A stretch of DNA of 64,000 bases from Bordetella petrii (GTDB lineage Bacteria > Pseudomonadota > Gammaproteobacteria > Burkholderiales > Burkholderiaceae_B), in NCBI RefSeq assembly GCF_017356245.1, contig NZ_JAFMZZ010000001.1, positions 636,262 through 700,261 on the forward strand, in the 5' to 3' direction. This document shows positions 43,939 to 63,996 of the stretch, piece by piece (position 1 is the first letter of the stretch; each line of letters begins with the position of its first letter). The translations under genes were made by a program, and so were the position numbers. The notes beneath the pieces were generated by a model. It worked only from the letters and a program-made list of their open reading frames with translations. It was not told the origin of the DNA and did no database searches.

Positions 43939-46900
43939 ATGGCAAAGCGTGTTGCCGTTGTGGGGCTTTCGTTCCGGTTTCCGCATACCGATACCGAGCG
44001 ATACTGGACCGACCTGATGGCCGGCCGCGACTTGGTCACCCAGGTGGAGGCCGAGCGCTGGCATCAAGATGCCTACCTGCATCCCGCCAAAGATCACCCT
44101 GGTACCGCGTATACCTTCGCCGCCGGCTCGATCGGCGATGTCTCGGGCTTCGATGCCCATTTTTTCGGCATTTCGCCGCGCGAAGCGGCTCTGATGGACC
44201 CGCAGCAGCGCCTGCTGCTGGAAATGTGCTGGGAAGCCATCGAACACGCCGGCATGCGCCCATCGGCCCTGCGCGGCAGCGACTGCGGCGTGTATATCGG
44301 CATTGCCAGCGCCGATTATTCCTACCGGCTGTCCGATGACATGGGCGCCGTCGATGCGTCGATGGCCACCGGCAACACCTCCAGCATCGCCGCCAACCGC
44401 CTGTCATACCTGTTCGACCTGCACGGGCCCAGCATGGCGGTCGACACCGCCTGCTCGTCGTCGCTGGTCGCCGTGCACCAGGCCTGCCGCGCCATCGTCA
44501 CCGGCGAAACCAGCCTGGCCATCGCCGGCGGCGTCAGCCTGCACCTGCATCCCTACGGCTTCATCACCTTTTCCAAGGCGTCGATGCTGTCGCCCGGCGG
44601 CCGCTGCAAGGTCTTCGATGCCTCGGGCGACGGCTACGTGCGCTCGGAAGGCGGCGGCCTGTTCCTGCTCAAAGACTACGACCAGGCCATGGCCGACGGC
44701 GACCACATCCTGGCCGTGATCGCCGGCAGCGCCGTCAACACCGACGGCCGCAAGTCCGGCCTGACCGTGCCCAACGCCGACGCCCAGATCGCCCTGATGC
44801 GGCAGGTATACGAACGCGCCGGCGTCCCGATAACCGACATCGACTACCTGGAAGCCCACGGCACCGGCACCGCCGTCGGCGACCCCATCGAGACGCGCGC
44901 CATCGGCGCGGCGCTGGGCCAGCCGCGCGGCGCCGGCAACCCACTGGTGATCGGCTCGATCAAAAGCAATCTGGGCCACCTGGAAGCCGCTTCGGGCGTG
45001 GCCGGCCTGGTCAAGGCCATCTACAGCCTGCAGCACCGCATGGTGCCGGCCACCATCGGCATCCAGACGCTTAACCCGGCCATCGAGTTCGACAACTGGA
45101 ACATCTCGGTGGCCACGCAGAACCATCCGCTGCCCCGCACCGGCTCGCTGACCATCGGCGTGAACTCGTTCGGGTTCGGCGGCGCCAACGCGCATGTCAT
45201 CCTGCAAAGCCCGCCGGCCGACGGCGACGACCAGGCCGACAAACTGGCCAACACCGCGGCGGTGCCCATCGTCGTCTCGGGCAAGACCCCCGACGCCCTG
45301 AAAGCCGCCGCCCGCAATCTGGCCCGGGTACTGCAAGGGCAGCCCGCGCGCGCGCTTTACGACGTGGCTTATCACGCCGCCATGCGCCGCGAATGGCATG
45401 CCGAGCGCGCCGTGGTGTACGGCACCGACAGCGAAACCGTGGCGCAGGCCCTGACCCAGTTCGCCGAAGGCGAGGCGCCGCGCTACAGCGTATCTTCGGG
45501 CAGCGCGGTGGCCCGTGCGCAAGGGCCGGTGTTTGTGTATTCGGGCAATGGCTCGCAATGGGCCGGCATGGGGCGCCAGCTGCTGGCCGAGCCGGTGTTC
45601 GCCGAAGCCGTGCACGAAATCGACAACCAGTTCGCGCCGCTGGCCGGCTACCGGCTGGCCGACGAGCTGGCGCGCACCGACAGCGCCAACCAGTACGAAC
45701 GCACCGAAATCGCCCAGCCCGCGCTGTTCGCCATCCAGGTCGGCATCACGCGCATGCTGGCCCAGCGCGGCATCCTGCCCACCGCGGTGGTGGGCCACAG
45801 CGTAGGCGAAGTCGCCGCGGCCTGGGCCAGCGGCGCGCTGGCGCTGGCCGACGCCGTGCAAGTCATTTTCCATCGCAGCCGGCTGCAGGGCACCACCAAG
45901 GGCCAGGGCTGCATGACGGCGGTCGGCATCGACGGCGGCGCCGCCGCCGCCCTGCTGGCCGAACTGCAGCTGACCGACGCGCTGTGCGTGGCCGGCTACA
46001 ACAGCGGCCGCGGCGCGACCCTGGCGGGCGACCCGGCCGCCATGGCCACGGCCGAGGCCGTGCTGGCCGAGCGCCAGGTGTTCTACAAGCGCCTGGACCT
46101 GGACTACGCGTTTCACAGCGCCGCCATGGATCCCATCCAGGCCGGCCTGCAGCAAACGCTGGCCGGCCTGGCCCCGCAGGCCGGCCACGTGCCGTTCTAT
46201 TCCACCATCACCGGCGGCCTGCTCGACGGCGGGCAGCTCGACGCCAATTACTGGTGGCGCAACGTGCGCGAGCCCGTGCGCTTTCAGCATGCCCTCGATG
46301 CACTGGTGTCGCGCGGCGAAAACATTTTCATCGAGATCGGCCCCCATCCGGTGCTGCGCTCATACGTCAACGACAGCCTGGCGGCCGCCGAGCGCAAGGG
46401 CCGCGTGCTGCTGACGGCCAGCCGCGGCAACGACGAGCCGGCCAAGATCCGCGACGCGGCCGGCCAGGCCGTGTGCAGCGGCGCCCAGGTCGACTGGCAG
46501 GACCTGTTCCCCTGGGAAGGCCGCCACGTCGCCCTGCCCGCCTACCCATGGCAGCGCGAACGCCACTGGCACCCCGTCACGCCCGAATCGCTGGGGCAAT
46601 TGCAGCGCGGCAAGGTCCATCCGCTGCTGGGCTATCCACTGCGCCAGCACGAAGGCATCTGGGAAAACCAGCTCGATACGGCCCTGTACCCCTGGCTGGC
46701 CGACCACGTGGTGGGCGAGGCAGTGGTGTTCCCCGGCACGGGCTTCGCCGAAATTGCGCTGGCCGCGGCCACGCAATGGCAACCGGGCGCCTGGGCGGAA
46801 ATCGAAGAGCTCGAGATCCGCGCGCCGCTGCTGCTGGCCGCGGCCCCGTCGAAGCGCCTGCGGGTCAGCCTGGACGCCGCCGATGGCGGCCTGCGCATCC

Positions 46901-61875: not shown

Positions 61876-63996
61876 TCAGTGCGCCAACTCGAGCTTCTCA
61901 ACCAGCTGGCGGGCGATCTTCCTCATCGCTGGATCTCCCTCTCGCAAGAACTCCGCAATCTTTTCAGTTCTCCATTGCGGCACGCCAACATTATCATTCG
62001 TCAATTGGCGTTTAGAATACTGGTTAATCGTAGAGATTTCATCCGTGCCTAAATAGCACATCAAAAATGCTGCCTTCTTTCTAGTTAGAGCATCAGGCTC
62101 AGGGTAATCTAAGCCCAATAGAAATCGCTCATAATCTTCTCGATTTTTTGGATACATCAACTCAACTGGGTAGTCGTGCCGGCCGAAATGCGAAGTCATA
62201 ATCACCGGAATGCCCTGAGCAGTCAATTCCAAGCTACTCGATCCGTTATAAAGAATTGCAAGGTCCAAATATGGGGCCAGCGCATGCCCATTGATATCCT
62301 TATGTCCCAAAACGCGGACATTATTTGGAATATCTACGGCAATCAAGTCACTCAGCTTTTCAACTAGATCCAAGGCAATTTCCGGACGCAGCTCATGAGG
62401 GTGGGGTTTAACGAGCAGGTAAATATCTTCGCTGCGTCCACTGATTTCAATCGTGTGGTTCAGCCAATCAGCCATATCTTCATGCGCGGGGCCACCATCA
62501 TATGGCACATTCAAATCCACGGGGACCTTCCCAAATGCGCAGACGATCTTCTTACCCTGCTGCTTCAGAACCTTCAATTGCTCGACAATTGCCAACTCAC
62601 TACTATTATCTGTTGAGCCCACGCGATTCACATTAATGAGCGCAGCCGCTTTCTCAAGGTACGTCGGAATATCGTTGCTTACTGCAAACCAAGCTTCAAA
62701 GTCGCTCTTTTTCGCCATGAACGGCGCGCGAACATTGGGATGCAATGTCATGTCGGTAACGCACATGGTGTTGGCAAACTTGCTTCCCAGATTCGAGAAA
62801 TATGCCTCATACGCTACATTGCAGTTGACAAACCCCATCAACGGATGGCTTTTGTGTCGTGCAAAATCGCGAAAAATCGAGAATGGTGTCACATGTGTAT
62901 TTCCGGACACAAACGTAAAAGGAATTCCTCTTTCACCCAGTGCTGAAAAAATTCGCTTGGCGACAGTCAGACATGTATCAGCTCTTTGAAGTGATTGCCT
63001 GAACTCTCGTTCGACAAAGGGCATATTTATGTCTACATGGAAGCGCCGGCAAAAGGTCGACAACCGCTCATAGAACCCTTGATAGAAGTTTATTCCGTCG
63101 GCCTTGATAATTTTTCTATTCCAATCTATTTCCCATTCATTCGCAAGATGAGGATATGAAAGATCCAACGGAATGACGCCCGCAAACTGATCAATAAACT
63201 CTAGTCCAGTTGGCTCTGCTGCGGTCATTCCCTCCGTAAGATTGATAACGGCATAGCCCAACCGCTTAGCTTCCACCAAGCTGGGGACCATCATTGCGAG
63301 TGTATTAAAGCAAGTTTGGGACGCTAGAAAAATCACTCCGCGCGGTAGCTTTGGCTGAGGCACGGCGCCCAATATTCGACTCGACTCTTCGCAGAAGCTC
63401 AATTTCTTAATTTCAGTCTCGAGGCTTGCGCGTTTTGCCACTGTTTTCGCCATGCGGGCCAATTCTTCATAGGCCATGCGAGATCTATTGAACAATCCCA
63501 TTTCACGCAAAACCCGGGCATAAACACCCAAAGCCTTCTCTCCACGTTGAAAATCCACGGGAGATCGTTGGTACAACGCCATGAACTCTTTGGTCTTTTT
63601 TTCGGACCGCAGCAAAAAGAGCTGCAGCAAGGTATTCGTATCGCTGTCAATCCAGTTAGAGAGTACGTCCAATATTTCTCGCGCGGACGAAAGCTCTCGA
63701 CACCGAATAAAGTACCTCAGCAGTGCAATAATTTCGACTGTACGATAGCCTTTCGGAGATTTATCCGTCCCCAATTGGCTTTGGAGTTCAGTAAAGTCCG
63801 CATATGATTTCAGTACTGCATGTTTGTCGTCTATGACGATTCCATACTGAATGCGATTGAAAATTGCATCAATTGGCGAAGGATATTTTATATCCAGCCC
63901 TTTCAAATACTCCTCGGCGGCACTGAGCCGCAGACGATATCGGAAATCGCTGTCCCTCTCCGATCGACTTGGCTTCAGGTGCATGACCTGCGCCAA
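61876..63996 (-). CDS. Putative capsule glycosyltransferase, candidate pseudaminosyl transferase (start not certain)
   Basis: At least 706 residues. The frame is still open at the window edge, so the true start may lie outside; 63996 is a TTG and 63984 an ATG. Residues about 50-215 are helical and TPR-like. The C-terminal half resembles the capsule GT fold: YLLVKPHPHELRPEIALD near residue 527 and LAILYNGSSSLELTAQGIPV near 580 match the phosphate- and nucleotide-site motifs seen in KpsS/KpsC. Position upstream of pseB suggests that it uses CMP-pseudaminic acid, which is an inference. The gene is much more AT-rich than all others here, a sign of recent acquisition. Confidence 0.7.
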   Translation of the reverse strand: MAQVMHLKPSRSERDSDFRYRLRLSAAEEYLKGLDIKYPSPIDAIFNRIQYGIVIDDKHAVLKSYADFTELQSQLGTDKSPKGYRTVEIIALLRYFIRCRELSSAREILDVLSNWIDSDTNTLLQLFLLRSEKKTKEFMALYQRSPVDFQRGEKALGVYARVLREMGLFNRSRMAYEELARMAKTVAKRASLETEIKKLSFCEESSRILGAVPQPKLPRGVIFLASQTCFNTLAMMVPSLVEAKRLGYAVINLTEGMTAAEPTGLEFIDQFAGVIPLDLSYPHLANEWEIDWNRKIIKADGINFYQGFYERLSTFCRRFHVDINMPFVEREFRQSLQRADTCLTVAKRIFSALGERGIPFTFVSGNTHVTPFSIFRDFARHKSHPLMGFVNCNVAYEAYFSNLGSKFANTMCVTDMTLHPNVRAPFMAKKSDFEAWFAVSNDIPTYLEKAAALINVNRVGSTDNSSELAIVEQLKVLKQQGKKIVCAFGKVPVDLNVPYDGGPAHEDMADWLNHTIEISGRSEDIYLLVKPHPHELRPEIALDLVEKLSDLIAVDIPNNVRVLGHKDINGHALAPYLDLAILYNGSSSLELTAQGIPVIMTSHFGRHDYPVELMYPKNREDYERFLLGLDYPEPDALTRKKAAFLMCYLGTDEISTINQYSKRQLTNDNVGVPQWRTEKIAEFLREGDPAMRKIARQLVEKLELAH

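Follow-up and report, generated by a model that had tools for sequence, protein, structure and literature searches.

A pseudaminic acid capsule locus of Bordetella petrii with a polyketide-type lipid module and a predicted sphingolipid anchor

Gene content of the locus

A 64,000-nucleotide stretch of Bordetella petrii DNA (bases 636262-700261 of contig NZ_JAFMZZ010000001.1, assembly GCF_017356245.1; hereafter the window) was analysed together with the sequence adjoining its right end. It contains a capsule locus in which genes for pseudaminic acid (Pse) synthesis, transfer of 3-deoxy-D-manno-oct-2-ulosonic acid (Kdo), and capsule export are combined with a lipid module comprising a polyketide synthase (PKS), an alpha-oxoamine synthase (AOS), a short-chain dehydrogenase/reductase (SDR), a lipoteichoic acid (LTA)-synthase-like protein designated here Sulf, and KpsS. 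The genes are as follows; positions beyond the window are those of the fetched locus L007, to which 59000 is added to obtain the extrapolated window position.

43939..51582, plus strand: PKS, fully reducing type I and presumably iterative, RkpA/WcbR/SgaA-like (Pfam; KS-AT-DH-ER-KR-ACP, no thioesterase)
51590..52936, plus strand: AOS, RkpG/WcbT/SgaB-like, predicted serine acyltransferase (serine palmitoyltransferase structures as best relatives)
52951..54237, minus strand: KpsS of the lipid-module clade, RkpJ-like, predicted first-Kdo transferase (PF05159; NF050054, 292 bits, cut-off 600; tree)
54186..56255, minus strand: KpsC, two-module Kdo transferase (PF05159 in three stretches; tree)
56301..57380, minus strand: PseI, pseudaminic acid synthase (TIGR03586, 497.7 bits, cut-off 340.25)
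57365..58138, minus strand: PseH, N-acetyltransferase (TIGR03585, 120.1 bits, cut-off 93.1)
57880..59013, minus strand: PseG, UDP-sugar hydrolase (TIGR03590, 313.4 bits, cut-off 153.55)
58980..59672, minus strand: PseF, CMP-Pse synthetase (TIGR03584, 347.9 bits, cut-off 205.7)
59669..60898, minus strand: PseC, aminotransferase (TIGR03588, 564.7 bits, cut-off 423.5)
60832..61851, minus strand: PseB, UDP-GlcNAc 4,6-dehydratase, inverting (TIGR03589, 547.6 bits, cut-off 407.75)
61876..63999, minus strand: in-window C-terminal part of a 1303-aa glycosyltransferase with KpsC-like residues 126-382 (whole gene L007:2876-6787)
L007 6831-7487, minus strand: KpsT
L007 7484-8278, minus strand: KpsM (NF050053, 182 bits, below the cut-off of 300)
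L007 8279-9430, minus strand: KpsD/Wza-like protein (Poly_export, SLBB)
L007 9402-10508, minus strand: KpsE (TIGR01010, 286 bits, below the cut-off of 437.5)
L007 10726-12288, minus strand: Sulf, LTA-synthase-like (PF00884)
L007 12281-13033, minus strand: SDR
L007 13062-14144, minus strand: PhyH dioxygenase (PF05721)

The order on the minus strand is phyH, SDR, Sulf, kpsE, the kpsD/wza-like gene, kpsM, kpsT, the 1303-aa glycosyltransferase gene, pseB, pseC, pseF, pseG, pseH, pseI, kpsC, and kpsS. The plus-strand PKS-AOS pair is convergent with this series, with 14 bases between AOS and kpsS; SDR and Sulf overlap by 8 bases, and a LysR gene and recG lie beyond phyH. A KpsM/KpsT exporter accompanied by KpsE and KpsD-type proteins, KpsC, and KpsS marks the locus as one of the ABC-transporter (group 2-like) type. 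A sequence-only reading of the window had assigned the six pse genes, kpsC, kpsS, a fully reducing PKS, and the AOS to these positions, described a Pse-type capsule locus with a PKS/AOS lipid module akin to rkp and wcb, and proposed to look past 64 kb for kpsMTED and further transferases. Pfam and NCBIfam scans bore out the assignments, the gene content agrees with the description, and PKS, AOS, SDR, Sulf, and KpsS correspond to the rkp/wcb module. Just outside the window, kpsT, kpsM, the kpsD/wza-like gene, and kpsE were found on the same strand, and the open reading frame (ORF) at the window end proved to be the C-terminal part of the long glycosyltransferase. The longest PKS ORF (43825-51582, plus strand) opens with TTG; judged from the sequence, the ATG at 43939 behind AAGGAAG, where that reading had also placed the start, is likelier.

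The PKS is 75-88% identical to those of five Bordetella records (B. petrii BT 1 9.2, MY10, genomosp. 2, genomosp. 4, and 02P26C-1). Rfam at gathering scores gave no match in the window, L007, or L008, and no tRNA was found in L007-L009. At positions 36869-41199 (plus strand), near the PKS, lies ugpBAEC, for which four NCBIfam models scored above cut-off; it encodes an importer of sn-glycerol-3-phosphate, and the locus is predicted below to use phosphoglycerol. In several fetched relatives, an ABC ATPase, matched by the KpsT query at 27-29%, lies some kb from the PKS.

All six Pse enzymes scored above the NCBIfam equivalog cut-offs (E-values from 9e-35 for PseH to 9e-170 for PseC); by these models, the gene set for CMP-Pse synthesis is complete. 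The pse run (56301-61851, minus strand) lies between the glycosyltransferase gene and kpsC on the same strand and is separated from them by 24 and 45 bases. The KpsC-like part of the glycosyltransferase (E 3e-48 to KpsC) contains a QxxxD stretch, a KpsC motif (PMC10148158), which makes Kdo in the polymer possible. Its residues 800-1303 had no match at E 1e-6 in the other 199 genomes of the family sample described below, and an AlphaFold2 model of the in-window part, computed without an alignment, reached a pLDDT of only 34.5 and was discarded. All six pse genes also occur with KpsS, KpsC, AOS, and PKS in G123 (same genus) and G113 (another genus). There, the set is again flanked by a long glycosyltransferase and by kpsC/kpsS, with an extra protein of about 350 residues before pseB; the long glycosyltransferases resemble the window protein in the KpsC-like part alone (37% and 35%, respectively). 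No other lipid-module stretch that was fetched showed a complete pse set. The pse genes have the appearance of a cassette that can be exchanged, shared by the window, G123, and G113 while the polymer probably differs. The joining of Pse and lipid modules in one locus, which the sequence-only reading had singled out, is present here but is less special than supposed, given the complete sets in G123 and G113.

In the PKS, the KS, AT, ER, KR, and ACP motifs are present, and the DH domain has DCTFQ; HVVGEAVVFP stands where the textbook HxxxGxxxxP is expected and does not match it. No intact methyltransferase motif was found in residues 1205-1822, the stretch between DH and ER, and no thioesterase domain was found by Pfam. 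The chain left on the ACP is expected to be unbranched and mostly reduced, and the single module suggests iterative use. Among solved proteins, the AOS is closest to the serine palmitoyltransferases 8guh/3a2b (E 4e-67), although it stayed below the cut-off of every one of the 12 NCBIfam models matched, including the serine palmitoyltransferase equivalogs (295.6 vs. 640, 268 vs. 500, and 213.8 vs. 670 bits). Of the 61 AOS copies that the fetched loci contain, 60 have a PKS gene directly upstream on the same strand (some loci overlap, so the genomes are not all different); the exception is at the edge of a fetched piece. A fully reducing PKS without a thioesterase beside an AOS is the arrangement of the Sga pathway of Pseudomonas fluorescens MYb115, in which SgaA (PKS) and SgaB (AOS) are needed for C24, C26, and C28 sphinganines, SgaB condenses acyl-CoA almost exclusively with L-serine as against alanine and glycine, and SgaC, an SDR, is the presumed reductase (PMC12134224). 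The MYb115 compounds that are 154 Da heavier are most likely phosphoglycerol-sphingolipids (PMC12134224).

PhyH matches were obtained in G123 (73%), a Pseudomonas plasmid locus (46%), and the AOS-less G321 (39%), a pattern indicating that PhyH is not a constant part of the module. AOS matches were also found in Planktothrix, inside a PKS reading frame (L121), and in Streptomyces and Nocardia plasmid records.

Distribution of Sulf and phylogeny of KpsS and KpsC

Sulf has the metal and nucleophile residues of the sulfatase fold at the sequence level, and E237, T279, H397, D460, and H461 are invariant in nine of nine members. On the basis of the alignment and of the known residue roles, T279 is assigned to the LtaS nucleophile position. 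When a profile of the nine members was compared with solved structures, the GacH phosphoglycerol transferase (1.5e-27) ranked ahead of LtaP (8e-19) and LtaS (8e-11).

The co-occurrence of Sulf and AOS was counted in a family sample of 200 genomes (E-value limits: AOS 1e-90, Sulf 1e-20, PF05159 1e-15) and a phylum sample of 398 genomes (AOS 1e-80, Sulf 1e-15, PF05159 1e-30); since the sampled genomes are related to one another, Fisher p-values make them look more independent than they are, and genus counts are also given. In the family sample, 48 genomes had both genes, 4 had AOS alone (G015, G068, G103, G169), 3 had Sulf alone (G088, a fragment; G092; G182), and 145 had neither, so that Sulf was present in 48/52 AOS genomes versus 3/148 others. 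Where PF05159 had no match (147 genomes), Sulf occurred in 12/13 genomes with AOS versus 1/134 without, and where it had one (53 genomes), in 36/39 versus 2/14; within AOS genomes, Sulf was independent of PF05159 (36/12/3/1, odds ratio 1.0). At the genus level, AOS and Sulf occur in one identical set of 14 of the 43 genera; PF05159 matches are missing from two of these (g2 and g6), and Sulf is missing from all four genera that have PF05159 without AOS. The two genes were on one contig in 44 of the 48 genomes and within 40 kb in 43, being 639 kb apart in G013. In the fetched loci, 51 Sulf copies were counted, and 40 of them have the SDR gene on the same strand and no more than 400 bases away. 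In G182, the Sulf gene lies at base 204 of a 6335-base contig, so that the assembly may be at fault for the lack of an AOS match. The link was looser in the phylum sample (13/24 AOS genomes versus 21/374 others); with stricter limits (AOS 1e-110, Sulf 1e-40), which were chosen after the first count, it was 13/19 versus 5/379.

PKS, AOS, SDR, and Sulf genes also lie with KpsMTED-like genes in loci without a KpsS or KpsC match (L029-L034 and L054-L055; g2, g6, and G118), where the sphingoid lipid would need priming by another glycosyltransferase. Some ORFs of G118 and G117 were scanned, and the glycosyltransferases compared differ while Sulf stays.

In Escherichia coli, KpsS puts the first Kdo on (lyso)phosphatidylglycerol, and KpsC extends it (PMC10148158, PMC7694667). 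KpsS, which meets the lipid, should change with the lipid, whereas KpsC, which meets only Kdo, need not. The KpsS tree comprised 80 rows from 78 sources (two with two rows): 47 of the 53 family genomes with PF05159 (G141, G156, G090, G131, G195, and G197 were left out), 24 of the 58 such phylum genomes, hand-picked mostly for stronger KpsS-like matches (34 left out), and seven named loci. E. coli UTI89 was labelled AOS-less despite its ordinary serine palmitoyltransferase gene, which shares 31% identity with the AOS of the window. All 63 rows whose source has AOS and/or Sulf fell on one side of a branch (bootstrap 99, SH-aLRT 90), a single change of label that was seen in all 200 bootstrap trees; the 17 rows with neither, E. 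coli UTI89 included, fell on the opposite side. A 100/100 branch separates the 63 rows and G231 from the other 16, and the window KpsS lies across it from the E. coli KpsS, outside the E. coli clade. The UTI89 KpsS, like that of the window, is below the NCBIfam cut-off (399/600 bits).

Quick trees were built for KpsC and for KpsS from the 64 shared sources, the low-coverage KpsC rows G227, G294, and G081 having been dropped. The AOS/Sulf label changed 8 times on the KpsC tree, at least 7 of these changes being forced by starred branches, and once on the KpsS tree. For example, KpsC of the six AOS-less g40 genomes falls in a supported clade with AOS genomes of the window's genus (G171, G103, G015), while the KpsS proteins of the two groups are on opposite sides. 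In the KpsS alignment, ten columns distinguish the module-type proteins (one residue in at least 85% of the clade and in at most 15% of the rows outside it, G231 left out; window residues 26, 32, 62, 92, 129, 177, 206, 246, 289, and 319), and the KpsC alignment has none. A merely taxonomic origin of the KpsS split was rejected, since members of a single family are found on either side of it, with their KpsC proteins intermingled.

The predicted anchor and its alternatives

Based on these results, it is probable that the locus makes a Pse-containing capsule anchored by a sphingolipid, a special lipid that replaces the usual anchor; in support of this hypothesis, Sulf tracks AOS, and KpsS splits with the module while KpsC does not. 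The gene content, the co-directional run from phyH to kpsS convergent with PKS-AOS, the MYb115 chemistry, and the gene order on a Pseudomonas plasmid (described below) also speak for it. The genes of the lipid module very probably make a sphingolipid. By homology, the PKS would build a long saturated acyl chain on its own ACP, the AOS would release the chain with serine as 3-keto-sphinganine, and the SDR would reduce this to sphinganine. With lower certainty, Sulf may move phosphoglycerol from phosphatidylglycerol onto sphinganine, and the resulting phosphoglycerol-sphinganine would be a look-alike of lyso-phosphatidylglycerol. The dedicated KpsS may then put the first Kdo on the glycerol, KpsC may extend the Kdo linker, the 1303-aa glycosyltransferase may add polymer from CMP-Pse and a second sugar (perhaps Kdo, in view of the KpsC-like N-terminal domain), and KpsMTED would export the capsule. 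Since phosphoglycerol-sphinganine would replace lyso-phosphatidylglycerol as the KpsS acceptor, two anchor chemistries need not coexist, and one sphingoid anchor is the simpler reading.

Several observations weigh against this hypothesis. At the first limits in the phylum sample, 11/24 AOS genomes had no Sulf match, and 21/34 Sulf matches were without AOS. AOS and KpsS occur without a Sulf match in G015, G068, and G103 of the family sample and in G366, G461, and G464 of the phylum sample, and phosphoglycerol, therefore, cannot be universal. G015, G068, and G103 carry AOS and PKS, with SDR in G068 (76%) and as an edge piece in G015 (89%); SDR was not seen in the four fetched stretches of G103. 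No replacement for Sulf was found among ten ORFs scanned from G015, G068, G103, and G461, which encode sugar enzymes, glycosyltransferases, a hexapeptide-repeat protein, a transposase, and an Omp85 protein. Conversely, G092 has Sulf and a module-type KpsS with a partial SDR and no AOS match, and G502, G526, and G516 have weaker Sulf relatives and a module-type KpsS with no AOS match. G231, with neither AOS nor Sulf, lies inside the 100/100 branch as the nearest outsider, and KpsS often adjoins SDR/Sulf, so that co-inheritance by linkage could add to the KpsS signal. Finally, the active sites of LTA synthase (LtaS) and GacH face outside the cytoplasm; with a Sulf-type active site outside and KpsS inside, an inward flip of the lipid would be needed. 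Hydropathy counts gave five segments in 7/9 Sulf rows (4 and 7 in the others), an odd number with which the catalytic domain could lie inside; a short sixth segment would reverse the side. The loop charges (first positive, third about neutral, stretch after the fifth net -1 to +5) fit an inside placement only partly. For OpgB, four segments plus one at 210-228 were counted. As an observation apart, the G092 capsule locus (L027 11959-14997) is perhaps a natural loss of the lipid synthase.

The loci without Sulf, together with the need for a flip, speak for an alternative in which KpsS attaches Kdo directly to the 1-OH of sphinganine, with Sulf acting at a later stage, either on the polymer after export or at another place on the lipid. 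A charged lipid would then not have to be flipped inward. Eight KpsS rows come from Sulf-less AOS genomes, and 6 of them form one subclade (SH-aLRT 88; G366 and one row of G464 stand beside it), which, from the tree, would fit a third acceptor. This alternative is nevertheless unlikely: probable free phosphoglycerol-sphinganines are described from a Pseudomonas with the PKS/AOS/SDR set (PMC12134224), and Sulf goes with AOS across the 14 genera. In two of the Sulf-less phylum genomes, G461 (L109) and G464 (L110), two KpsS-like genes lie side by side.

GacH, the closest solved relative of Sulf, decorates a polysaccharide. Sulf might likewise decorate the capsule sugars with glycerol phosphate, the anchor being sphinganine with another or no head group. 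A Cobetia capsule containing Man6PGro, whose producer carries a wcbPQRT operon, is in line with this, as an LTA synthase has been linked there to polysaccharide decoration (PMC11766843), and it also counts against the phosphoglycerol-sphinganine hypothesis. However, Sulf presence depends on AOS and not on KpsS/KpsC, and Sulf stays while the compared glycosyltransferases differ; we regard this explanation as rather improbable.

The sequence-only reading had proposed that KpsS and KpsC build on ordinary lyso-phosphatidylglycerol and that the PKS/AOS lipid is a second, separate component, two anchor chemistries thus coexisting. Although the E. coli proteins do use (lyso)phosphatidylglycerol (PMC7694667, PMC10148158), the lipid-touching KpsS with the module forms a clade apart from the E. 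coli type while KpsC does not, and the module also accompanies KpsMTED-like export genes in genomes without a PF05159 match. On these two grounds, the coexistence of two chemistries was rejected, and the lyso-phosphatidylglycerol version is very doubtful.

Pse is common on flagellins, but it is equally hard to believe that the pse genes serve flagellin or lipopolysaccharide glycosylation and are here by coincidence, as all six lie inside a tightly spaced same-strand run and two other genomes hold complete sets between a long glycosyltransferase and kpsC/kpsS.

Relation to known capsule and sphingolipid systems

PKS, AOS, SDR, an LTA-synthase-like protein, and KpsS in one capsule locus constitute the rkp/wcb lipid module. 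The rkp-1 region of Sinorhizobium (rkpA, rkpG, rkpH, rkpI, rkpJ) has the same five functions in the order PKS-AOS-SDR-LTA-synthase-like-KpsS, as one block on the S. meliloti pSymB record followed by a kpsF-type gene, whereas here the five are split to both locus ends with pse and kps genes between. The assignment of rkp letters to genes, and in part that of the wcb letters, is presumptive. In fumonisin-type fungal PKS/AOS clusters, the chain is released by the AOS. Their product is PKS-derived and sphinganine-like and involves a KDSR-type reductase (parallel drawn in PMC12134224), but it is a mycotoxin and not a capsule anchor. In Cobetia, wcbPQRT lies beside kpsSC and kpsETMD and is called lipid carrier biosynthesis, with WcbQ as an LTA synthase (PMC11766843). 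Two Burkholderiaceae plasmid loci differ from the window in their sugars and in an LpxC-type deacetylase gene, absent here, between PKS and AOS (Paraburkholderia and Caballeronia modules, L119:19040-19954 and L120:17033-17959); the Caballeronia protein scores above the PRK13187 cut-off. The E. coli group 2 locus (kpsFEDUCS, kpsMT) shares KpsMT, KpsE, a KpsD-like protein, KpsC, and KpsS with the window, but in UTI89 no PKS, AOS, SDR, or LTA synthase is annotated between kpsF and kpsM, and its KpsS is of the other clade. A serine palmitoyltransferase cluster (L124:34177-38264; spt, ACP, acyl-AMP ligase, and an epimerase-like gene) lies about 30-32 kb from UTI89 kpsM.

The MYb115 SgaABC proteins, compared by description, are of the same kinds as the window's PKS, AOS, and SDR, but they are described as a secondary-metabolite cluster, and a capsule goes unmentioned in the main text, which has no words beginning with capsul or kps (PMC12134224). 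The Pseudomonas plasmid NZ_CP016850.1 carries PKS-AOS-PhyH-KpsC-GNAT-LTA synthase-SDR-KpsS-KpsC and, further on, kpsF, kdsB, and kdsA; its locus tags for PKS, AOS, and SDR (26445, 26440, 26415) span 30, with four genes between AOS and SDR. The MYb115 tags (19805, 19800, 19775; PMC12134224) have the same spread of 30. This equal spacing suggests that the MYb115 cluster may also sit in a Kdo-linker capsule locus.

The rkp and wcb operons are in print as capsule-lipid genes (PMC3908369, PMC11766843); rkpGHI and -J have been tied to the rhizobial capsule since 1997, according to a paper title, and a 2025 Cobetia paper describes the wcb proteins as little known (PMC11766843). That role and the formation of sphinganine by such a PKS/AOS pair (PMC12134224) are, thus, already known. 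A sphingolipid-anchored capsule is stated in no title or abstract opening among the open-access matches listed, a scope outside which most subscription papers fall, and no word starting with lyso, sphing, or polyketide occurs in the accessible text of a 2025 review on how capsules are attached (PMC12220298). What is new here is the Sulf-AOS link across genomes, the KpsS/KpsC contrast, and the proposal that phosphoglycerol-sphinganine stands in place of lyso-phosphatidylglycerol.

A wider claim, on which the evidence is evenly poised, is that a polyketide-made sphingolipid anchors a whole class of Gram-negative capsules, the rkp/wcb type known from many Proteobacteria, that phosphoglycerol-sphinganine is the acceptor of the dedicated KpsS clade, and that the MYb115 phosphoglycerol-sphingolipids are anchor precursors. 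If true, this would give the rkp/wcb lipid genes a role and join the rkp/wcb and sphingolipid literatures, for which no joining paper was found among the open-access matches listed. It would account for KpsS, and not KpsC, differing in lipid-module loci. Furthermore, it would provide a function for orphan phosphoglycerol-sphingolipids and predict sphingolipids in many bacteria thought to be without them.

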